In this document: in pieces, positions 82-27,412 of the stretch | Layout of the letters: each line of letters opens with the position of its first letter | Numbering within the stretch: the stretch's first letter is position 1 | NCBI GenBank assembly: GCA_021372575.1 | Contig: JAJFUE010000014.1 | Span: 1 to 34,208 of the forward strand | Origin: a bacterium | GTDB lineage: Bacteria > Sumerlaeota > Sumerlaeia > MVZB01 | Reading direction: 5' to 3' | Length of the DNA stretch: 34,208 bases | The notes under the pieces: generated by a model | Seen by the model: only the letters and a program-made list of their open reading frames with translations | Told to the model about the DNA's origin: nothing | Databases searched by the model: none | Made by a program: the position numbers and the translations under genes

Positions 82-1509
82 TTATTCGTAACACGCCCAC
101 TCTTTCGCCGCATTTTTCGGGGCGGGCGAATAGCTGAACCACAACTGCCCCTCGGTCGCGGAAACTTCTTCCTCCCAGACGGAATAGATCCCGCCTACGC
201 CGTCGAGGGCGATCGCGGGGCGCTGCCATGATTGATCGCCCGGAGTCAGCGTGCGTGCCTCGACCGCTGTTTTTGTGGACACGTTATATTTTAAATATAC
301 GATTTTTCGCGGCGACGCCGCATCGACATACACAACATGCAAATAGCCGTTGGCGTCGAAAACCGCCGCGGGCTGGTTTTGCGCGCCGGTTGCGGACACG
401 ATCTTGAACGCCGCCTCGAACGCGGTTGCGCCCGCAGGACGGCGCCGCGCCATGATCTCGTCGTTGCCGAACTCGTCGTGCTGCGTGTAGATGATCCAGA
501 TTGCGCCGTCGGGCGCGACGAGGATCTTGGCCGGATCGTAATAGCCGCCGGCGTTCAGTTCGAGCCGGGTCGATTCGAGCAGCGATCCGGAATTGACATT
601 GTATCGGCCGTAATAAAGCTGCGGGTCGCTGCCTGTGCCGGTTGCCCAGCACAGGTGCAGCGTTCCGCTTGTTGCGGCGACCGCCGGCATGGTGAACGGC
701 GTGCCGGCGTTGCCGTCGAAGCGATCGGCGGCAACGGTCAGGCGCAATGAATCCATCGACGGAGGCGCGACGAAATTGCCTGCGGCATCGCTCAGCCGCA
801 GGCAGATTTCGGAGACGCCCGGATTCCAGTGATAGTCATACCACACGAGCGCGATGCGGCCGTCGGGGAGCAGCGCGGCTTTGGGAACATAACCGTTGTC
901 GCCGCCGTGAACCGCGCCGCTGGACGTAATGCGCGTGTCGGTGGTGGAGAAATCGCCACCAGAGGGCCGCCGGTCGCCGTAAATCTCGATGTCGAACGGG
1001 CCGGCGGTGCTGCGGTTGCGGTAGTCGTGCCAGAACGCCCAGATCGTGCCGTCGGTGCGCTCGACCATGACCGGATGCCGCCCGCCCATCTCCTCGCTGT
1101 TGTAGAACGATTGCGAAAGAAGCCGGCGGGCGTCCCACGATCCGTTCGACCACTGGCGCAGCCACACGTGCGACGGCCGGTCGCCGAAATAGGTTTCCTG
1201 GCCGCCGTCGTAATAGACCAGCGTGAGTTTGCCGTCGCGGGTCCACGCAAGCGAGCCGGCGGTGCTGCGGCTCATTCCGGCCGGCGCGGTCGTGTCGTTG
1301 TCGGTAATGCGAACGGGCGAGTTGAATGAAACGGCATAAGCATCGAACGAAGCAAAAAAAATAAGGAGAACGATATGAGAAATTGCCAAGAATCTGCCGC
1401 CCCGGCCGGGGCTTGTTTCAAGATATGATCCCGCGTTCCCAGGGCTTGCGCCCTGGGCTAACTTATGTCGCCCCTGCCGGGGCTGGGTTGTCGCCGAATG
1501 AGGTTTCAT
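82..1509 (-). CDS. Secreted BNR/sialidase-like beta-propeller protein with a REP-encoded N-terminal extension
   Basis: A 475-residue exported protein. From about residue 65 it shows repeated blades of the BNR/sialidase-fold type, with recurring patterns such as DGKLTLVYYD, DGTIWAFWHD, DGRIALVWYD and DGAIWIIYTQ. No sialidase catalytic set could be identified, so an enzyme activity is not claimed. The ATG directly follows the stop of the upstream PQQ-propeller gene, and GAGGTG lies 6 nt upstream, so translation is probably coupled. A hydrophobic signal segment (AISHIVLLIFFASFDAYA) begins only near residue 42. Residues about 9-37 are encoded by palindromic REP-like DNA. A TTG at 1389 would skip this extension but has no good ribosome-binding site. 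The gene is second in the B12-riboswitch unit, so corrinoid-related binding or surface work is possible, but this is inference. Confidence 0.85.
   Translation of the reverse strand: MKPHSATTQPRQGRHKLAQGASPGNAGSYLETSPGRGGRFLAISHIVLLIFFASFDAYAVSFNSPVRITDNDTTAPAGMSRSTAGSLAWTRDGKLTLVYYDGGQETYFGDRPSHVWLRQWSNGSWDARRLLSQSFYNSEEMGGRHPVMVERTDGTIWAFWHDYRNRSTAGPFDIEIYGDRRPSGGDFSTTDTRITSSGAVHGGDNGYVPKAALLPDGRIALVWYDYHWNPGVSEICLRLSDAAGNFVAPPSMDSLRLTVAADRFDGNAGTPFTMPAVAATSGTLHLCWATGTGSDPQLYYGRYNVNSGSLLESTRLELNAGGYYDPAKILVAPDGAIWIIYTQHDEFGNDEIMARRRPAGATAFEAAFKIVSATGAQNQPAAVFDANGYLHVVYVDAASPRKIVYLKYNVSTKTAVEARTLTPGDQSWQRPAIALDGVGGIYSVWEEEVSATEGQLWFSYSPAPKNAAKEWACYE
1399..1483. repeat. REP-like A-B-A element inside the BNR gene 5' end
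   Basis: Two family-A palindromes (1399-1412 as the perfect palindrome GCCCCGGCCGGGGC, and 1470-1483 as GCCCCTGCCGGGGC) flank a B hairpin, CCCAGGG (1438-1444) with CCCTGGG (1451-1457). The whole element lies within the open frame of the BNR protein and is read as residues about 9-37. The same A-B-A order and reading frame occur in the left arm of the element in batE at 19128-19340. Confidence 0.8.
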
Positions 1510-2862
1510 TTAATGCACCTCAAAAAAGCTCAGTTCGACGGGGACGGTTTTTCCGAATGCGCGCAGGCCGCCCACGCCGCCGGTGGTGTAGTGCGCGAAA
1601 ATTCCGCCGAGCGAATCGATCATGACCGGGCCGCCGTAAGTCGCGGTCACGCGATCCGCGATCGTGCCGTCGGACACGTTCACGATGACGAGATCGGTCG
1701 TCGGATCGGAGCCGAAGAAATCGCTTTGCGTCAGGTAAATATGGTTATCCGTGGCGGCCATGCCGTTGCGGAAACAGTAGCCGCCGATCGTCGTCGAGCG
1801 AATGAGCGAGCCGTCGAGCGCGCTGTAGGCCGCGAGCTGCGCGTTGCCGAACGGCCCGCCGTAGAGATAAATCGTGCCGTTCACGAGCAGCGGCGCCGTG
1901 TCGGATTCGATCGAACTCACTTTCCACACCAGCGATCCGTTCGAGGCATCGACGCAAAACAGTTGGCCGGTTCCGGATCCGCTGTAAGAAACGCCATAAA
2001 TTTTTCCGCTGGAATAAATGAACGGCGCTTCGATGGGGTTGGACAATGACCACGGCGCGGGCGCGGTGAGATGGCTCCACACGAGCGAGCCATCGGTCGC
2101 CGCATAGGCCGCGATGCCGTGGCTCGTCGAGCCGTCAAAGACCTCGGTCAACACAACGCCACTCGCAATGTTTGACAGGTAAATCGGCCGGATGCGACCG
2201 GTTCCGCCGTCCTTGTGCGACCATGCGATCAAACCGTCGGCCGCGTTGAACGCGACGATCTGCTTGTCGCGGTAGCCGCCCATGTAATCGTCGTATGTCT
2301 CGATGAAGACTTTCCCCGCGCCGATCGCGGGACTGCAGTTGATCAGCTCGAGCGAGGCGGTCGTGGACGTCGTGGCCGAGGTCAATGTCGTGGACCAGGC
2401 GACCGTGCCGCTTGTTGGACTGAGCCGGTTCATCGTGCGCCCGGCGGCGTAATAAATCGCGCCGTCGGCGGGGTCGATCGTCGGCCCGGCGATCGAGGCG
2501 TAGCTGACCGAATTGCCGGCGTCGAGGAACGGCGATTGCCAGATGAGCGTGCCGTCGGCGGCGTTGAGCGCCTTGATCCAGACCTTGTCGTCGCTCGGGT
2601 CCCAGTTGCCGCCGTCGCGCATCGCGACCGCATAGACCGTCGTGCCGCGCAGGGCCATGCCGGCGCCCGGGGCAAGCTCGCCGGCGCCGGTGTCCCACGA
2701 CGGCCCGGACGCGAGCGATGTTACCTGCGATGACAGGCCGCTGCGCCAGGCGTTGTTGTCGTAAGAGCCGTGGATCGAAAGCCAGTCGGTGGCGAACCCG
2801 GGCGAGGCGAGAAGGAAAAAGAGGCAAATCCGAAATCCGAGATACGAAATCCGATGCAACAT
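1510..2862 (-). CDS. Secreted PQQ-type beta-propeller protein under B12 riboswitch control
   Basis: A 450-residue exported protein of the PQQ/pyrrolo-quinoline-quinone-repeat beta-propeller fold (BamB-like superfamily). Blades recur with the typical DGTLIWQS, SGTVAWST, DGLIAWSH, DGSLVWSH and NGSLVWKV strands. The ATG at 2862 was chosen because GGGAG lies 8 nt upstream and because a signal peptide (MLHRISYLGFRICLFFLLASPGFA) follows directly; the open frame runs further upstream through the riboswitch, which is not coding. No lipobox cysteine is seen, so it is probably periplasmic or secreted. The gene is the first behind a cobalamin riboswitch, which is unusual for a PQQ-like protein. BtuG, the Bacteroides surface corrinoid-binding protein, is also a beta-propeller, so a corrinoid-binding function is a reasonable hypothesis. 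A generic PQQ-like scaffold is the alternative. Confidence 0.87.
   Translation of the reverse strand: MLHRISYLGFRICLFFLLASPGFATDWLSIHGSYDNNAWRSGLSSQVTSLASGPSWDTGAGELAPGAGMALRGTTVYAVAMRDGGNWDPSDDKVWIKALNAADGTLIWQSPFLDAGNSVSYASIAGPTIDPADGAIYYAAGRTMNRLSPTSGTVAWSTTLTSATTSTTASLELINCSPAIGAGKVFIETYDDYMGGYRDKQIVAFNAADGLIAWSHKDGGTGRIRPIYLSNIASGVVLTEVFDGSTSHGIAAYAATDGSLVWSHLTAPAPWSLSNPIEAPFIYSSGKIYGVSYSGSGTGQLFCVDASNGSLVWKVSSIESDTAPLLVNGTIYLYGGPFGNAQLAAYSALDGSLIRSTTIGGYCFRNGMAATDNHIYLTQSDFFGSDPTTDLVIVNVSDGTIADRVTATYGGPVMIDSLGGIFAHYTTGGVGGLRAFGKTVPVELSFFEVH
2822..2858. repeat. Iterated word in the signal-peptide codons
   Basis: On the minus strand the words CGGATTTCG, CTCGGATTT and CGGATTTG follow each other and encode the n- and early h-region of the PQQ propeller's signal peptide. 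The pattern resembles the intergenic iterated-word sequences but is translated. It may be chance codon repetition over a short stretch. Confidence 0.4.
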
Positions 2863-2877
2863 GGCGAACGCTCCCAT

Positions 2878-2896
2878 GGGGTTGACAGGGAACCCC
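2878..2896 (-). promoter_or_regulatory. Leader hairpin next to the ribosome-binding site
   Basis: On the minus strand GGGGTT and AACCCC form a 6-bp stem around a 7-nt loop. It ends 2 nt before the GGGAG ribosome-binding site of the PQQ-propeller gene (2875-2871). It lies downstream of the cobalamin riboswitch and could be part of the expression platform acting on translation start. It has no U-tract, so it is not an intrinsic terminator. The switching role is inference. Confidence 0.4.
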
Positions 2897-3071
2897 TGGC
2901 GATTGAGCCCGGCGCCGGTATGGACGCCGTGGCGGACCAATCCGCCGTGAAGGGAAGCCGGGTCGCCCCACGCACGAACGCGCGCGATGGATCGCATGAG
3001 GGTCGAGATGAAATCGGCAGGTCGGCTCAGCACGACACGCCACCTTCCCAGCTCACGAAGAAGGATTGGGG

Positions 3072-3240
3072 CTGGCTCCTGGCGGCGGGTCTTCTGGCTT
3101 CCGGATCGTCCTACTTGCCGCGCCTTCCCAGTTCCCGACGGAACCAGTGGCATACATCGCGGCTTTCGTCCCCGGTTACAGCGGCGTGTCCGCGGTGGAA
3201 TCGCACCACCTTCCGTGTTCGAAGGCCTTGCCACAGGCGA
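3072..3240 (-). ncRNA. Cobalamin (B12) riboswitch
   Basis: The minus strand carries the conserved parts of the cobalamin riboswitch aptamer in the right order: a GGTGcgATTCCacC stem, CGCTGTAACCGG (about 3184-3173), GCCACTGG (3151-3144), GGGAAGGC (3129-3122) and the B12 box AAGCCAGAAGACCCGCC (about 3100-3084). The family binds adenosyl- or methyl-cobalamin and usually represses the genes behind it when B12 is plentiful. A good promoter lies 36 nt upstream at 3303-3276, and the first gene downstream is the secreted PQQ propeller at 2862. About 200 nt separate aptamer and start codon, room for an expression platform. The exact ends are approximate because P1 pairing was judged by eye. Confidence 0.9.
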
Positions 3241-3275
3241 TCGAACGTTCGCCGACAGGATACAAAAGCAAGACG

Positions 3276-3498: not shown

Positions 3499-4310
3499 GG
3501 GGACAGCCTACTAAATAGGCTTGCGTTTCGGCAAACGTTGATGGCAGCATCTGGCACATGGCAAGACTGGCACGCGTCGTCGTCGAGGGAGTTCCCTACC
3601 ACGTCACGCACCGGGGCAATCGGCGCGGCGACGTGTTCTTTTCCGACGACGACCGCCGCTCGTATCTGTGGGAACTGTCGCAGGCGGCCGAACGGTTCCG
3701 GCTGAAAATCTGGGGCTGGTGACTGATGGGCAACCACGTCCATCTGATCGCCGTGCCGCTCGAGAAGCGCGCCCTGGCGCGCACGATCGGCCTGGCCCAT
3801 GGCCGCCACGCCCGCCTGGTCAACGCCCCGCGCGGCTGGACCGGCCACCTGTGGGCCAACCGTTTTTATTCGACCGCCCTTGACGAGGCGCACCTGTGGA
3901 CGGCGATCCGATACGTCGAACTGAACCCGGTGCGGGCCGGGTTGGTGCGGGGCACCGAGCGCTGGCCGTGGTCGAGCGCGCGGGCGCATGCCCTGGGCGA
4001 GTCCGATCCGATGCTCGATCCGGCGCGGCCGTTCGCCGCCGGCGCGCGCGACGCGCTCACCGGGCGGTTCGTGTCGTGGTCCGAATGGCTGGCGCGAGGG
4101 CTGGCCGACGACAAGGCGGACGCCTTGCGCGAGGCCACGCGCACCGGCCGTCCGTTGGGCGACGAACTGTTTGTCAAACGACTGGAGGCCGAGCTTGACC
4201 GAACGCTTGCCCCGCAAAAACGCGGCCCAAAACCCCGCGCCAACGACGACCCACCAGAAATTCCAGGATTATTCTAATGGAAACCCGGGCCTATTTTGTA
4301 GACTGTCCCC
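3499..4310 (+). mobile_element. RAYT-type transposable element with 22-bp terminal inverted repeats
   Basis: An 812-bp unit bounded by imperfect 22-bp inverted repeats. The left end 3499-3520 begins GGGGACAGCCTAC and the right end 4289-4310 finishes GTAGACTGTCCCC, with 20 of 22 positions matching. It contains a single gene for a Y1/HUH transposase of the REP-associated family, interrupted by a UGA. No clear target-site duplication is visible, which fits the family's transposition through single-stranded DNA. At the right end it joins the interior of an AT-rich open frame that has lost its 5' end. Confidence 0.75.
3558..4277 (+). pseudogene. REP-associated tyrosine transposase (IS200-like Y1 family) with an in-frame UGA
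   Basis: A 240-codon frame with the features of RAYT transposases: the N-terminal ARVVVEGVPYHVTHRGNR segment, the HUH motif within MGNHVHL (codons 57-63) and the catalytic-tyrosine region YVELNPVRAGLV. Codon 55 is UGA (3720-3722), located where RAYT proteins often carry a cysteine just before the L-M-x-N-H-V-H block. Everything after it stays in frame to the TAA at 4275, and no other lesion is seen. A single TGC-to-TGA change is the simplest explanation, giving a recent pseudogene. Selenocysteine readthrough cannot be excluded from one sequence, but no convincing SECIS hairpin is seen at the expected distance. An ATG at 3726 starts a C-terminal piece that keeps the HUH and tyrosine residues. 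Confidence 0.85.
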
Positions 4311-9012: not shown

Positions 9013-11553
9013 ATGGGCTGGATTTTCGCGCGCTGCCTGGCGGTCTTTGCGCTTGTTCTCGGCGTTGCGAATCCGGCGTCGGCTGCCGTGGCTTCGGCGA
9101 ACGACGGATTCGATCCCAACGCCAACGGCACCGTGCACGCCATCGCCATCCAGTCCGACCATAAAATCGTCATCGGCGGCGAATTCACCAAGGTCGGCGG
9201 CGTGAGTTTCAGTCACGTCGCGCGCATCAACATCGACGGGAGCGTCGATGCCGTCTTTTCCGGGCTGGGCGCGAACGGAAACGTGCTGGCCGTGTGCCTG
9301 CAAAAAGACGGCAAGATCCTGGTCGGCGGCTTGTTCACAAGCGTTTGCGGCACCGGGCGGAACCGGATCGCGCGCATTTACCAGAACGGCACGCTCGATG
9401 CTTCGTTCAATCCCGGCAGCGGCGCCAATGGCAGCGTCAACGCGATTGCGGTGCAGCCGGACGGCAAAATTCTGATCGGGGGCAATTTCACCGCGATCAA
9501 CGGCAGCACCCGGCAGCGCATCGCGCGGCTCAACGCCGACGGCTCGCTCGATGCGACGTTCAATTCCAGCGCGGACAAGACGATCAATATCCTGGCCGTT
9601 CAGGCGAGCGGAAGAATCCTGGCCGGCGGCGCGTTCACCACGTTCAACGGCAGCCCGCGCGCCTTGATCACGCGGCTTGAATCCGACGGCGCGCTCGATG
9701 CCGGCTTCGCGCCACTGACCACCGACGCCGGCGGCGCGTCCGTGAACACGATCGCGGAGCAGACCGACGGGCGAATCCTGATCGCCGGCACGTTTTATTC
9801 GATCGACGGCGCACCGCGGCACCGGATCGCGCGCCTGCACCGTGACGGCGCCATCGATGCGGATTACAATCCGGCCGGCGGCGCCAACAGTTACGTCAAT
9901 GCGATGGCCGTGCAGCCCGACGGCCAGGTTCTGATCGGCGGCTCTTTTGTCGATGTGAACGGAATGCCCAGCGTGCGCATCGCGCGACTCAATCCCGACG
10001 GCACGGCGGATGCCACATTCAAATCGGGGGCCGGCGCGACCAATATCGTCCGTTGCATCGCCCTTCAGGCCGACGGCAAGGTGCTCATCGGCGGCGATTT
10101 CATCGGATACGACGGTCTCACGCGCAACCACATCGCGCGCCTGAACCTCGACGGTTCGCTCGACCGGACGTATATTCCCGGGCCCACCACCACAAAATCG
10201 AGCATCGTCCGGTGCATCGCCGCCCAGCCGGACGGCAGGGTGCTGCTGGGCGGATACCTTGGTTACAACGATTACACCACGTTCCGCTATTTCAGGCGGT
10301 TTCACGCGGACGGCGCGCTCGATGCCACATTCAATCCCGCCGTGGAGCCCCGCAACCCGACGGCCATCGCGGTTCAGCCCGACGGCAGGATTTTGATCGC
10401 GGGCACGTACCAACTGGGGAGCAGCAACCAGCATGACCATCTCGATCGGCTGAACGCCGACGGATCGCTGGACGCAACTTTCAAGTCCTGTTCCATGGAT
10501 GACTTGATCGGGCACGTTTGGGCCATCGCGATCCAGCCCGACGGCAAGATCATCGTGGCCGGCACGTTTACCCAGTTCAACGGGCTTGCCCGTGCCAACA
10601 TCGCCCGCCTGTATGCCGACGGCTCGCTCGATTGGACCTTTTACCCGGGATACGGCCCGAAGAATAATTCGTACGTCTATGCGGTCGCGTTGCAGCCGGA
10701 CGGCAAGATCGTAATCGGCGGCGATTTCACGGTCTATAACGGAACACCTCGAAACCGGATCGCGCGGATCAATCCCGACGGTATGCTGGATACGACGTTC
10801 AATCCCGGTTCGGGCGCGAACGAGCCTGTCCAGAGCCTGGCGATCCAACCGGACGGCAAAATCGTCGCCGCCGGCGAATTCACGAGCTTCAACGGCGTGA
10901 GCCGCTTGAACATCGCCCGCCTCAACGCCAATGGTTCGCTGGATACCGCATTCAAATTCACCGAGAGCACGACCCGGGATTTCAATCTGGTGGTTCTGCA
11001 ATCCGACGGCAAGGTGATCGCCAGCGGCAACAACACCGTCGCCCGGTTGAATGCGGATGGATCATTCGATCATGCCTACGTGGCGCGGCCCGACGTGAAC
11101 GCGACCGACGGCGACGCCGGCGGCGGACTGGCCTTGCAGCCCGACGGCAGGGCGCTGGTCGGCGGCGAGGGCATCAAAACCATCCTCGGCCAGTATCGCG
11201 ACAACGTCGCGCGCATCTCCAATCCGGACGCGGCGGTTCAGCAGCTTCAGGTCGAGCCCTCAGCCGGCACCGTGACATGGCTTCTCGGCGGCAGTTTCCC
11301 GTGGCCGTGCATGGCGCTATTCGAGGAGTCCGCCGACGGCCGCGCCTGGAACAAGCTCGGGTGGGGCGCGCCGATCGACAAGGTTGGATACCGCCTGACC
11401 GGGCTCAAGCTTCCGATTGGAAAGAACCATTACGTGCGCGCGACGGGATGTTTCACGGAGGGCCAGAACATCAGCGCGTTCCAATCCACGGCGCGCTTTT
11501 ACGAGCGTTCGTCGCTTTACAACGCTGCGGCGTCGTGGCTGTTTTATAAATGA
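9013..11553 (+). CDS. Secreted delta-60 repeat protein
   Basis: An 846-residue exported protein with a clear signal peptide (MGWIFARCLAVFALVLGVANPASA). It then has fourteen copies of the delta-60 repeat, about 50-60 residues each, whose hallmark reads like VQPDGKILIGGNFT followed by RIARLNADGSLDATF. The repeats run to about residue 735 and form a beta-propeller-like array in this family. The last 110 residues are a non-repeat tail of unknown role. The family occurs in large secreted or surface proteins of many Gram-negative bacteria; its ligand is generally unknown. GGGG lies 8 nt before the ATG. The internal repetition also creates a long antisense open frame, which is a shadow. Confidence 0.92.
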   Translation: MGWIFARCLAVFALVLGVANPASAAVASANDGFDPNANGTVHAIAIQSDHKIVIGGEFTKVGGVSFSHVARINIDGSVDAVFSGLGANGNVLAVCLQKDGKILVGGLFTSVCGTGRNRIARIYQNGTLDASFNPGSGANGSVNAIAVQPDGKILIGGNFTAINGSTRQRIARLNADGSLDATFNSSADKTINILAVQASGRILAGGAFTTFNGSPRALITRLESDGALDAGFAPLTTDAGGASVNTIAEQTDGRILIAGTFYSIDGAPRHRIARLHRDGAIDADYNPAGGANSYVNAMAVQPDGQVLIGGSFVDVNGMPSVRIARLNPDGTADATFKSGAGATNIVRCIALQADGKVLIGGDFIGYDGLTRNHIARLNLDGSLDRTYIPGPTTTKSSIVRCIAAQPDGRVLLGGYLGYNDYTTFRYFRRFHADGALDATFNPAVEPRNPTAIAVQPDGRILIAGTYQLGSSNQHDHLDRLNADGSLDATFKSCSMDDLIGHVWAIAIQPDGKIIVAGTFTQFNGLARANIARLYADGSLDWTFYPGYGPKNNSYVYAVALQPDGKIVIGGDFTVYNGTPRNRIARINPDGMLDTTFNPGSGANEPVQSLAIQPDGKIVAAGEFTSFNGVSRLNIARLNANGSLDTAFKFTESTTRDFNLVVLQSDGKVIASGNNTVARLNADGSFDHAYVARPDVNATDGDAGGGLALQPDGRALVGGEGIKTILGQYRDNVARISNPDAAVQQLQVEPSAGTVTWLLGGSFPWPCMALFEESADGRAWNKLGWGAPIDKVGYRLTGLKLPIGKNHYVRATGCFTEGQNISAFQSTARFYERSSLYNAAASWLFYK

Positions 11554-17232: not shown

Positions 17233-19086
17233 TTGAGGATTTGCGGCCGACATCACCTGTTCCTGTGCGCCGTCGCGTTCGCGCTGTGCTGCGCGGCGGA
17301 GGCCGCGGCCGCGGACGTCGAGTTCACGGCGTCGGTCGATCGCACTGACATCCAGGTCGGCTCGACCGTTCAGCTCACGATCAGCGTCAATTCCAAGTCC
17401 GGACAGGACGATGTCAGTCCGACGATGCCCGATTTCGGCGGCCTGCAGGTCGTCGGCGGGCCCTCGAACCAGAGCCAGATGACGATCGTCAACAACGTGA
17501 TGTCGGCGACGACGAGCGTGGTCTATCAGCTCCGCGCGCCGCGCGTCGGCACGTTCACGATCGGGCCGTCGCGGCTCGATTACGGCGGCAAGAGCTACGA
17601 GACGAAACCGATCCAGGTCAAGGTCTCGATGCAGCAGCCGCCGAGCCTGCCGGACGACCTGAAAAACGAATCGATCCTGCCCGCGCGCAGCGACAACGAC
17701 GACGTAAACCGCCAGCTCGACGGCCGGCTGTTCCTGCGCGCGCAGGTCAGCGACCGCAACCCGTTCGTCAGCGAGCCGGTGCTGATCACGTATTCGATTT
17801 ACTGGGAGCGCGTTCCGATCAACGGACTGCAATTGCCCCAGCAGCCGATTCACGTCAGCGGTGGGCTGGTCGAGGACAAGTTCCGCGCCAAAAATATCCA
17901 GCCCAAGACCGAGGTCCACGGCGGGCGCACGTACCAGGTCGCGCCGATCTACCAGTTCATGCTGACGCCGACGACGGCCGGCGAGGCGGTCATCGACAGT
18001 TATGCGGCGGTCGCGCAGTTGCCGGTGCAGCGGCGGTCCAATCCGCGCGATCCGTTCTCGGCGTTCGACAGCCCGTTCTTCGGATCGCCGGGCCTGCAGG
18101 TCGAGGTTCCGGCCGCGCCGATCAAGCTCGACGTGCGGCCGTTGCCGACCCAGGGCCAGCCGGCCGGGTTCAACGGGACCGTCGGGAATTTCACGCTCAA
18201 GGCATCGGTCGATCGCGCAAGCATCAAGCAGGACGAGTTGCTCACGCTCGAGCTCACGCTTTCGGGCCGCGGCGCCGTCGATCTGGCCGGGCCGCCGCAG
18301 TTCCCCGACAATCCGAATTTCGAGCTGGTCGATAAGACGCAGGAACTCGTGAAGCCGCAGCCGAAAGATTACATCGGCGGCACGAAGCGTTTCCAGTTCA
18401 GCCTGCGGCCGAAGAAATTCGGCCGGCTTGAGGTTCCGGCGATCGAATACCCGATTTTCAACGCCGACCAGGAATCCTACAAGGTCCTCAAGACCGATCC
18501 GATTCGCGTGCAGGTCGCCGAGGTTGCCGGCGCGTCGGTTCAGGTCGCGGCGGGCGACAAGATCACGCCGCGTTCGACGGGCGCCGTGCCGCTGAATTTC
18601 ATCGAGCCGGTCGATGCGATCAGGTCCGGCCGCGCGCAGCCGCTCTTCGAATCGCCGCTGCTGTGGGTCCTGCAGATCGCCGGGCTGGGGGTGTTTTTGT
18701 TTTCGTGGCGGCGCGACTGGCGCAAGGCGAGGCTCGATCCGGCGGCGGTTCGGCGCGGCGGCGCGTGGCGCGCGTTCGAAAAACGCCTGCGCGCGATTCA
18801 GGCGCAAATCAGCAGCGGCAAGCAGGCCGAGGCCGCCGGCGCGTTCGAGCACGCCGTGCGCAGCCTCATCGCCGACCATTTCAACACCTCGGCCGAGGGG
18901 CTCACCCGCGACGAGATCGCGCAGCTTCTGGCCGGCAGCAACCTCTCGCGCGAGCAGATCGGCAAGTTGCTCCAGCGGCTCGACGCGTGCTCGTGCGCAA
19001 GTTATGCGCCCACCGCCGAGCCGGTCGATATCGCGGCATGGAGCAACGAAACGCGCGCCATGCTGAAGGAGGGCCTTCACGCATGA
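17233..19086 (+). CDS. batD: BatD family protein
   Basis: A 617-residue exported protein of the BatD family (PF13584). A signal peptide (FLCAVAFALCCAAEAAAA) is followed by tandem Ig-like beta domains, for example ADVEFTASVDRTDIQVGSTV, TIGPSRLDYGGKSYETKPI and NFTLKASVDRASIKQDELL. One membrane segment at about 475-491 (LLWVLQIAGLGVFLFSW) precedes a cytoplasmic C-terminal helical region. The start codon is probably TTG at 17233, with AAGGA about 11 nt upstream. The stop overlaps the ATG of batE by 4 nt, so translational coupling is likely. Length and architecture match the family. It presumably works in the cell envelope with BatC and BatE; its precise role is unknown in general. Confidence 0.88.
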   Translation: MRICGRHHLFLCAVAFALCCAAEAAAADVEFTASVDRTDIQVGSTVQLTISVNSKSGQDDVSPTMPDFGGLQVVGGPSNQSQMTIVNNVMSATTSVVYQLRAPRVGTFTIGPSRLDYGGKSYETKPIQVKVSMQQPPSLPDDLKNESILPARSDNDDVNRQLDGRLFLRAQVSDRNPFVSEPVLITYSIYWERVPINGLQLPQQPIHVSGGLVEDKFRAKNIQPKTEVHGGRTYQVAPIYQFMLTPTTAGEAVIDSYAAVAQLPVQRRSNPRDPFSAFDSPFFGSPGLQVEVPAAPIKLDVRPLPTQGQPAGFNGTVGNFTLKASVDRASIKQDELLTLELTLSGRGAVDLAGPPQFPDNPNFELVDKTQELVKPQPKDYIGGTKRFQFSLRPKKFGRLEVPAIEYPIFNADQESYKVLKTDPIRVQVAEVAGASVQVAAGDKITPRSTGAVPLNFIEPVDAIRSGRAQPLFESPLLWVLQIAGLGVFLFSWRRDWRKARLDPAAVRRGGAWRAFEKRLRAIQAQISSGKQAEAAGAFEHAVRSLIADHFNTSAEGLTRDEIAQLLAGSNLSREQIGKLLQRLDACSCASYAPTAEPVDIAAWSNETRAMLKEGLHA

Positions 19087-20093
19087 CCACCATCCTTCAA
19101 TCAATTCCCGATTTTCATGAGTTTGTGCAGCCCCGGCAGGGGCGAAAGAAGGTTGCCCAGGGTGCAGCGGAGCGGAACCCTGGGTGCCGATCGCGGCAAT
19201 CATACCGAGCCCCGGCAGGGGCGGCAGAAACAGAGTGCTTCCGAATTTCTGCCGCCCCTGCCGGGGCTTGGTATGAAGAAAACAATTCTTCCCCAGGGCT
19301 GGCTCCCTGGGCTACCTTCTATCGCCCCTGCCGGGGCTTGGTCTTTAACTTGCTCGCAATGGCATTTTTCATCGGATTGGCCGTCTGCTCCCGCGCCGCC
19401 TCCGACTCCGAGCAGCTCGAGCGCGCGAAAACTGCCTTCACGAATCAGAATTACAAGCTGGCCGCGCAGGTTTACGAGAAGCTGATCGAGCAGGCGCCGC
19501 ACGATCCGCGCCTGCTTTACAACCAGGGCACCGCTTACGCATACATGGGCGAACGCGGCCTGGCCCAGTGGCGTTACCTGCAGGCCCTGCGTTACGCGCC
19601 GCGCGACTCCAATATCCGCCAGAACCTTGCGGCGCTCGACCCGGATTACCGGAGCCAGATCGCGCTGACGCCGCTCCTGCCGGTCGAGCTGGTTTATGGG
19701 TATTTCACCGGCAACGAATGGGCGGGACTGGCCGGGTCGGCGACGTTCATCGCGCTTGCCCTGGGGACGCTGGCGCTGTGGCGGCCGCGCGGAACGCGCC
19801 TGCGTCTTGCCGCGCGCAAGCTGGCCGTCACGGCCGTTGTCCTTGCCGCCATCGCCTGGCCGTTCGCGATGGGTCATTACTACCAGGAAAACATTTCGAC
19901 GCGCGGCGTGACGGTCGTCGATGACGCCAGCATCCGCTCCGGCCCGAGCGAGACCTCGCGCGAAACGTGGAAGCTCAAGGCGGGCGTCGTGGTCGATATC
20001 ACCGACGACAAGACCCACCCCGACTGGCCGTTCGTCTCGATGGCCAACCGCGGCTCCGGCTTCATCAACCGCAACCAGATCCGCAAGTTATAA
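19083..20093 (+). CDS. batE: BatE-like TPR/SH3 membrane protein with a REPIN-encoded N-terminal insert
   Basis: A 336-residue protein. The ATG overlaps the batD stop (ATGA) and has AAGGAGG 9 nt upstream, so this start is firm. Residues about 16-86 are encoded by palindromic repeat DNA. Only after that comes the signal segment (LLAMAFFIGLAVCSRAAS), then TPRs (DSEQLERAKTAFTNQNYKLA, DPRLLYNQGTAYAYMGERGL), two membrane segments (about 218-236 and 245-262) and a bacterial SH3 domain (GVTVVDDASIRSGPSETSRE to the end). TPR plus SH3 is the expected BatE architecture. An internal ATG at 19359 would yield a normal signal peptide but lacks a ribosome-binding site. The insert gives an n-region of about 88 residues, very long for a signal peptide; whether the protein is still exported is unknown. 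Confidence 0.85.
   Translation: MTTILQSIPDFHEFVQPRQGRKKVAQGAAERNPGCRSRQSYRAPAGAAETECFRISAAPAGAWYEENNSSPGLAPWATFYRPCRGLVFNLLAMAFFIGLAVCSRAASDSEQLERAKTAFTNQNYKLAAQVYEKLIEQAPHDPRLLYNQGTAYAYMGERGLAQWRYLQALRYAPRDSNIRQNLAALDPDYRSQIALTPLLPVELVYGYFTGNEWAGLAGSATFIALALGTLALWRPRGTRLRLAARKLAVTAVVLAAIAWPFAMGHYYQENISTRGVTVVDDASIRSGPSETSRETWKLKAGVVVDITDDKTHPDWPFVSMANRGSGFINRNQIRKL
19128..19340. repeat. Composite REPIN-like element inside batE
   Basis: Four family-A palindromes (19130-19143, 19209-19222, 19254-19267, 19324-19337) and two B hairpins (CCCAGGG/CCCTGGG at 19156-19184 and 19292-19311) are ordered A-B-A then A'-B'-A', a dyad about a 15-nt centre. The inner arms 19201-19230 and 19246-19275 match over 29 of 30 positions. 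The element is about 213 nt, a multiple of three, and holds no stop in the batE frame. Paired inverted REPs of this kind (REPINs) are mobilised by RAYT transposases in other bacteria. Confidence 0.85.
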
Positions 20094-23790: not shown

Positions 23791-23931
23791 CGCTCTAATC
23801 AACGCGCTCGAAATTGCATTAATTCTTGACGATACAGTCGAGCTATGGCCATTGTAGAATGTTTAACTTGGGTTCGGGGTTGAGGCGGTCCAGCCCGGGG
23901 TGTCATGGCCGTCATGCGAGAGCAGAAATGT

Positions 23932-23957
23932 GATGTCGCTTCGGGCCGAAGCGACCT
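23932..23957. repeat. GTCGCTTCGG hairpin repeat, copy 1
   Basis: GATG followed by a 10-bp perfect stem (GTCGCTTCGG against CCGAAGCGAC around one base) and then CCT. These 26 nt recur identically at 27357-27382. This copy lies just upstream of the ribosome-binding site of pgk and could fold in its 5' leader. Confidence 0.75.
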
Positions 23958-23979
23958 ACTGACGCAAAGGAGCCGAGCC

Positions 23980-26505: not shown

Positions 26506-27351
26506 CTGTCGGGTGAAAGCCACAAAATCTATTCTGAGCGCGATGCACCGCGCCAGTTTTTGTCCGTTGCTGAAGAACTCATCCCGCAGGTGCTGGCCGG
26601 AGATCATCCGATTATTGAAGGTCTTCGCAAACAATACAATACGGCATCTGTGGAAAGACTCGAGTTGAGCAGCAAAGGATTTGACATCTTCTATCAGATT
26701 CCGGAAGGCACACCACGTGTTTCGCTGCCGAATTTTGACCATCTCGGTGGTCAGGTAGAATTGGAAGGCTTTGAAAATGGTGCTCCGTGCGTTTTGCATG
26801 TGTGCGATGGCATAATCAGAATGTTTGAGGTCTTCAAAATTGGAGAAGGCAATTGGTCGGAAGATCTAAAAGTAATCTCGATCTTCAATGTGAGTTCATT
26901 AAGGGAAGATCTCGATGACATAATCTTGCAACAAACGTTTCCGAAAGTATTCTCGTCACAAAATGCACCCCGCGAGATTATAGCTCTCGCCGAAAATCTC
27001 ATGCCCTTATTGTTATCAGGCGAGCATCCCGCATTAAAGGCTCTACGGCAGCAACTCCAGATGGCCAAAATTAAAGACGTGGAAATGACTGGCCACGGCT
27101 TTTTTTTGAATTATGATGTTCCGGACGATGCTCCTCGAACGAATCCGGCAAATATCGCGGGCGGATCTGCATACATCGAGGTGACGGGTCTTCCCGCCGG
27201 TGCTGGGTGCGTTGTTTTTGTTGAAAACGGCAAGCTCTCTTGTTTGGAAGGATATGCATATGACAGAACATGGTCGGAACATGCCAAAATTCTTTCAATA
27301 AAGGAGGTTACTCCGGTAAAACCGGAGGAACGCAGCGGCTCACAAAAATAA
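26506..27351 (+). CDS. Two-domain protein of unknown function (tandem duplication)
   Basis: About 281 residues made of two homologous halves of about 105 residues each. Compare SERDAPRQFLSVAEELIPQV then LAGDHPIIEGL with SSQNAPREIIALAENLMPLL then LSGEHPALKAL; both end in a strand pair such as GAPCVLHVCDGIIRMFE or GAGCVVFVENGKLSCLE, followed by W-S-E...KVISI or W-S-E...KILSI. I recall this as an uncharacterised bacterial domain. The homology shows that the first domain begins upstream of the earliest TTG (26560), yet no ATG, GTG or TTG lies in frame before it. A CTG at 26506 has GGAAGGG 9 nt upstream and would start the protein MSGESHKIYSERDAP. Either CTG is used or the gene has lost its start. 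Composition is AT-richer than its neighbours. Confidence 0.6.
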   Translation: MSGESHKIYSERDAPRQFLSVAEELIPQVLAGDHPIIEGLRKQYNTASVERLELSSKGFDIFYQIPEGTPRVSLPNFDHLGGQVELEGFENGAPCVLHVCDGIIRMFEVFKIGEGNWSEDLKVISIFNVSSLREDLDDIILQQTFPKVFSSQNAPREIIALAENLMPLLLSGEHPALKALRQQLQMAKIKDVEMTGHGFFLNYDVPDDAPRTNPANIAGGSAYIEVTGLPAGAGCVVFVENGKLSCLEGYAYDRTWSEHAKILSIKEVTPVKPEERSGSQK

Positions 27352-27356
27352 ACTGC

Positions 27357-27382
27357 GATGTCGCTTCGGGCCGAAGCGACCT
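27357..27382. repeat. GTCGCTTCGG hairpin repeat, copy 2
   Basis: The same 26 nt as 23932-23957, starting 5 nt after the stop of the two-domain unknown gene. Beyond them, flanking TGAC is shared after two changed bases. Here it sits at a 3' end, whereas copy 1 sits in a 5' leader, so position does not define its role. Confidence 0.75.
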
Positions 27383-27388
27383 GGTGAC

Positions 27389-27412
27389 AAAAAAAACCGC
27401 CCGAACGGGCGG
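27389..27412 (-). terminator. Intrinsic terminator of the RRM gene
   Basis: On the minus strand CCGCCCG-TT-CGGGCGG is followed by eight T, an ideal Rho-independent terminator about 36 nt after the stop of the RNA-binding protein gene. It is the only textbook intrinsic terminator I see in the window. Confidence 0.9.

Follow-up and report, generated by a model that had tools for sequence, protein, structure and literature searches.

REPINs and RAYTs have been described previously (Bertels and Rainey 2011, PMC3116915; PMC2817692). REPs situated within genes are known to decorate proteins, including their N-termini, and clusters of them code for 43–82 residues; in some species most N-terminal REPs were judged to be extragenic, on account of doubt concerning the start codons (Di Nocera et al. 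2013, PMC3733652). The RPEs of Rickettsia, as summarized in PMC10969869 from Ogata et al. (2000, 2002), are palindromes of approximately 150 nt that occur in frame in unrelated genes. Weinberg et al. (2010, PMC2864571) reported Acido-Lenti-1 (Rfam RF01687) from Acidobacteria and Lentisphaerae as a candidate RNA gene.

The locus considered here, the start of batE, lies in a stretch of 34,208 nt that is referred to as the window (contig JAJFUE010000014.1, designated C82, of the Sumerlaeota assembly GCA_021372575.1). The genome surveyed comprises 4.63 Mb in 214 contigs. The reading preferred, with a probability of roughly 0.8, is that the batE leader carries a REP/REPIN-type element that was inserted with the reading frame kept, and that its site and frame reflect which insertions can be survived and not targeting.

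The palindromic element in batE

batE (19083–20093, + strand) encodes a protein of 336 aa with TPR and SH3-like domains and follows the operon gene batD (17233–19086, +), which was recognized from its ORF, its coding score and its ATGA overlap with batE. In that overlap, the batD TGA (19084–19086) is shared with the batE ATG at 19083, and a Shine–Dalgarno-like AAGGAGG (19066–19072, +) is located 10 nt 5′ of the ATG. A preliminary description of this DNA had taken the batE start to be set by these two features, and the comparison with relatives bears this out. A search of 40 relatives with the insert-free protein gave orthologues in 32 (best identity 42%), and the ATGA overlap with batD is the start in seven of the nine that were suitable. 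The hydrophobic segment begins at residues 4–8 in all nine, as against approximately residue 87 here, where the signal/anchor segment occupies 19341–19397 (+) and the hydropathy maximum falls at residue 87. These orthologue starts and the early onset of the hydrophobic segment identify the batE start as conserved and place the insert between the start codon and the signal/anchor. In the relatives, batE starts without the repeat, and the position of the element in the operon is not conserved; the empty site is a deduction from distant orthologues, the closest being that at the identity just given.

The insert is a complete A-B-A/A′-B′-A′ element of 210 nt (19129–19338). It consists of a REP core A (AGCCCCGGCAGGGGCG; 19129–19144, +), a B hairpin, CCCAGGG...CCCTGGG (19156–19184, +), a second copy of core A (19208–19223, +), an inverted core A′ (19253–19268, −), a B′ hairpin, CCCAGGGCTGGCTCCCTGGG (19292–19311), and the outer inverted core A′ (19323–19338, −). 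Complementarity is 92% between the outer arms (37 nt) and 97% between the inner arms (31 nt). One boundary of the element is uncertain, since its left end, GTGC, lacks the CC that precedes the core at 58–62 of 72 ends. The batE frame is open through the whole element, reading MTTILQSIPDFHEFVQPRQGRKKVAQGA...YRPCRGLVFNLLAMAFFIGLAVCSRAA, and the stretch encoded by the insert would be QPRQGRKKVAQGA...YRPCRGL. Both the large in-frame dyad at the batE N-terminus and the lack of any stop or change of frame across it, as first described, were recovered, translation being open for approximately 71 residues' worth. It should be noted that internal misassembly of a 210-nt palindrome in a metagenome-type draft assembly could alter the frame.

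Repeat families, transposases and Rfam matches

The 16-mer core occurs 100 times as an exact match in the genome, 42 times on one strand and 58 on the other; the reversed pattern, used as a control, gave 0 occurrences, so the core is not a product of chance. The survey of this family (family I) took in only exact or near-exact cores. Its clusters are dispersed loci comprising single cores, A-B-A halves and complete A-B-A/A′-B′-A′ elements, and the 11 complete copies are arranged as inverted doublets (++−−). A Y1 transposase gene (PF01797, E=3e–23) was identified on contig C11, bracketed by inverted cores, one of them 12 nt past the stop codon and the others from 45 nt before the start codon. 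The inner flanks at this gene, AGCCCCGGCAGGGGCGACACAA, are those present in the middle of the complete elements, which would be expected if the latter are deletion derivatives of a transposase-bearing unit. On C11 (L114 and L064), the open frame of the Y1 transposase extends a long way 5′ of the ATG, across several repeat units, in the frame that reads PRQGR.

B is preceded by GTTAG or CTTAG in most copies and by GTAG in a few, and neither GTAG nor CGTC occurs as a constant tag next to the palindrome in family I. Since such a tag is not constant, the family is regarded as REP-type and is filed in neither of the tagged superfamilies. The features of REPs and REPINs that were found are the high-copy palindromic core, the extragenic bias, the inverted hairpin doublets and the Y1 gene flanked by the repeat. 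Several family I copies (L065, L069, L095, L098, L101 and others) have the common outer flanks tcgcatgtcatggaacgccc...ggctgaattcgc, which suggests a larger amplified unit or a subfamily. A scan of a genome collection for A-B gave only three matches, in bins of Terriglobia, Planctomycetales and Akkermansia; all three have one core A, and the complete inverted element was present in 0 of the 3.

Two further repeat families (II and III) were observed, one with GTCCC...GGGAC and CCCGCCA...TGGCGGG and one with AGCGCTGAAAGCGCG and CCTGGGGC...GCCCCAGG; both adjoin other Y1 genes. Many family II units (L131, L134–L139, L150) are situated within larger elements that have the terminal inverted repeats CAGGGTGTTGAAAAA...TTTCAACACCCTG and are apparently a separate MITE. 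The window itself contains a Y1 (RAYT-like) transposase remnant with one in-frame TGA (3585–4277, +), a probable pseudogene, approximately 2 kb from two element copies. It also contains a 43-nt repeat, 86% identical between 23926–23968 and 27351–27393, that includes the palindrome GTCGCTTCGGGCCGAAGCGAC and is possibly another repeat family. A cobalamin riboswitch (RF00174, 91.9 bits; 3067–3271, −) lies directly 5′ of a PQQ-repeat-like gene (1510–3033), and 9013–11553 (+) encodes a large protein of approximately 51-residue repeats, in at least nine copies spaced by approximately 153 nt.

Relative to the RF01687 gathering score of 37 bits, the two halves of the batE element score 34.8 (the B′-A′ half, 19292–19338, +) and 25.7 bits, both below, and a copy near the left end of the window, in a BNR-type gene, scores 50.5 bits (1438–1484, +), above it. 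There are 94 matches at E≤0.001 in this genome, and the RF01687 model has matches in 23 of 40 genomes of the phylum. Because all three repeat families match, the model does not single out any one of them. On the batE dyad, matches to Rfam miRNA families were rejected as generic long hairpins with scores far below gathering. The matches to an Rfam sRNA family, the very stable RNA structure of the 213-nt batE segment (minimum free energy −166 kcal/mol) and the post-transcriptional roles credited to REPs of other genomes (PMC3733652) are all in keeping with an element that acts mainly as an RNA- or terminator-like regulator of the bat operon, through batD–batE stability or attenuation, with its coding tolerated. 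That the element has such a role is nevertheless considered unlikely. The repeat is dispersed over unrelated loci, and its position in the operon is not conserved, the batE genes of relatives starting without it; no batE-specific role is therefore indicated. A side effect of the element on expression of the bat operon is possible.

In-frame copies, their placement and their frame

The BNR-type gene (82–1509, −) carries an A-B-A half of 87 nt (1398–1484, −) in its leader and reads QPRQGRHKLAQGASPG. In orientation and frame it equals the batE copy, as had been claimed; in extent it does not, being a single half and not the full dyad. Its start is less secure than that of batE, the ATG abutting an upstream TAA and a TTG (approximately 1388–1389) being present downstream of the insert. 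Another core A (1–16, −) lies at the contig end, 65 nt past the stop codon of the BNR gene. The BNR genes at L089 (1–579) and in the window (82–1509) are 77% identical, with a repeat core behind each. These loci constitute a partial duplication, and some element copies may therefore be inherited and not independent. The paralogue was discarded as a control for the start site, as it is truncated at a contig end. In-frame insertion behind a start codon recurs in a third family I case, a prepilin-like gene (L089, contig C142) that Pfam N_methyl matches. The gene reads MSNPISPITQPRQRRQKVAQGASPGYKHLFSLFSEPRQGRKITANNSFALPGAPYPGFTLLELL, in the QPRQGR/PRQGR frame used in batE, and contains no ATG, GTG or TTG between the element and the N-methylation motif.

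It is probable that BatE is translated from the ATG at 19083, with approximately 71 extra residues. A second, less likely possibility is that the insert is 5′ untranslated in practice and BatE starts at the internal ATG (19359–19361, +) or at TTG 19350 or 19338, the open frame being incidental. These repeats commonly show open read-through 5′ of genuine starts, as in the cases at G009 and in the C11 transposase, whose ORF is open in the PRQGR frame upstream of its ATG, so that an open frame is in itself no evidence of translation. The judgement of Di Nocera et al. (2013, PMC3733652) on N-terminal REPs in other species points the same way, and the shortened BatE would still open with the hydrophobic segment. 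The ATG at 19359, however, is without a Shine–Dalgarno sequence and lies directly behind a very stable hairpin, and the shortened signal has no basic residue ahead of its hydrophobic core. The batD-overlapping ATG, moreover, is intact with its AAGGAGG and matches the conserved start of the orthologues, and the prepilin-like gene, with the same type of insertion, has no downstream start. Long open frames at G009, G001 and G007, from a scan that left out contig-edge loci, were rejected as in-frame insertions; since their coding score arises only well downstream, they were mostly taken as read-through 5′ of ordinary starts.

The preliminary description had also proposed a targeting preference near translation starts, or selection for tolerated frames, and a survey of the copies against genes. 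Genes were called with a home-made coding-score caller on the genome stretches surveyed (coding density 0.84), and 16 clusters at contig edges were set aside. The 37 family I clusters with both neighbours known comprised 19 tandem, 10 convergent, 5 divergent and 3 in an ORF. It is apparent that the clusters are mainly extragenic (34 of 37, despite 84% coding; P=4e–24 for three or fewer in ORFs). The extragenic copies lie a median of 103 nt from facing stop codons vs 183 nt from facing starts (Mann–Whitney P=0.002), and the paired test of stop and start distances in tandem clusters gave P=0.019. In-ORF copies thus proved rare, and the supposed preference for starts was not supported, the extragenic copies being nearer to stops.

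Among the three in-ORF clusters, those in batE and in the prepilin-like gene are clear; the third (L078) is a borderline case, its called TTG start lying within the element. The choice of TTG 1389 by the caller led to the BNR copy being counted as tandem. The copies in batE, the BNR gene and the prepilin-like gene are located 42, 25 and 20 nt, respectively, behind an upstream stop, and at each of these sites the following start coincides with that stop. They look like ordinary copies behind an upstream gene whose stop happens to coincide with the start of its neighbour.

Family II copies were found in frame within gene interiors, in an MrfA/YprA-like helicase (L127, C83), an RND transporter (L146, C155) and a YfhO-like gene (L133, C65), the last named from its sequence. 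Residues 15–590 and 637–800 of the helicase align with PDB 6znp, which is nearly contiguous (582 to 585) over the insert, and YprA aligns without the family II segment. The insertions in the RND transporter and YfhO-like genes are deduced from the repeat boundaries. As family II is in frame in gene interiors, N-terminal placement is not a general rule.

The shared frame was considered in terms of stop codons. Of 40 distinct half-elements, 24 are free of stops in the forward PRQGR frame, and 17 and 2 in the two remaining forward frames; for the three reverse frames the numbers are 14, 22 and 24, so that PRQGR accounts for 24 of 103 open combinations of frame and orientation. The probability that two copies share it is approximately 0.23 when every open combination is counted and 0.56 when only one orientation is considered. 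PRQGR is already the commonest stop-free forward frame, and it is open upstream of the C11 transposase ATG as well; frame selection as the cause of the shared frame is unneeded once stop codons are counted. Of the 11 complete copies, that in batE is the only one whose length is a multiple of three; this is in keeping with a filter on survivors, although it is a single case.

Site-specific targeting to translation starts or exported-protein leaders, or selection keeping one frame, is accordingly regarded as very improbable. It would account for three family I copies in ORFs that lie approximately 8–15 codons past the start, ahead of a signal-like segment and in one frame, and for the common frame (SRRDxRxQPATxVAG) of the family II copies in the helicase and RND transporter. 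The frame probabilities given above are nevertheless high enough for a shared frame, and start-codon targeting was rejected on the stop and start distances together with the interior insertions of the second family. Destructive interior insertions would be purged, so that those in leaders remain. The common type of site and the common frame reflect survivorship of tolerable insertions, with no targeting needed.

The events at batE may be pictured as follows. A non-autonomous REP/REPIN-type element, presumably mobilized by a Y1/HUH transposase such as that on C11, landed approximately 42 nt past the stop codon of batD. Owing to the overlap of the two genes, this site is also just inside batE, in the gap between its start and its hydrophobic segment. 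The gene stayed open because the copy has no stop in the PRQGR frame and its length is a multiple of three. In BatE made from the ATG at 19083, the membrane segment would be preceded by approximately 71 additional residues, most of them polar, and expression of batE is probably reduced, compared with that of batD, by the long hairpin at the beginning of the gene.

Comparison with known systems

The batE insert is a REP-type element, without the GTAG/CGTC tag, inserted in frame, a well-preserved instance of a phenomenon already known. Beyond Rickettsia and the classic REP genomes, it is a clear case in which a structured mobile repeat has (probably) become coding sequence, and it indicates that a shared frame and a leader position can come from stop-codon content and survivorship. 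A much broader generalization is doubtful: that three REP families of this lineage, each with its own Y1 transposase, decorate proteins on a scale comparable to that of RPEs in Rickettsia, in translatable frames and with exported-protein leaders as recurrent sites, and that the Acido-Lenti-1 'sRNA' is a mobile DNA repeat everywhere.

At many copies the B′-A′ half scores above the RF01687 gathering level, although both batE halves fall below it. In contrast to an RNA gene candidate, the matches here are halves of dispersed DNA repeats, from three families with different palindromes, which suggests that, in this genome at any rate, the Rfam RNA family represents a transposase-associated DNA repeat. 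The resemblance to RPEs, as these are described in PMC10969869, lies in the in-frame insertion into coding genes (batE and the prepilin-like, helicase, RND transporter and YfhO-like genes); the present copies differ from the RPEs of that account in being mostly extragenic and in their link to a Y1 transposase. The two are treated as analogous by description, with no membership claimed.

Like REPINs and RAYTs, the family consists of G+C-rich, high-copy palindromes, mostly extragenic, in inverted hairpin doublets, with a Y1 gene between inverted copies; it differs from REPINs in its composite three-palindrome arms (A-B-A/A′-B′-A′) and in having no constant GTAG or CGTC tag. As with the intragenic REPs of Di Nocera et al. 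(PMC3733652), a protein is decorated at its N-terminus and the same caution over start codons applies. The difference is that another repeat family is involved and that one complete element supplies approximately 71 residues.
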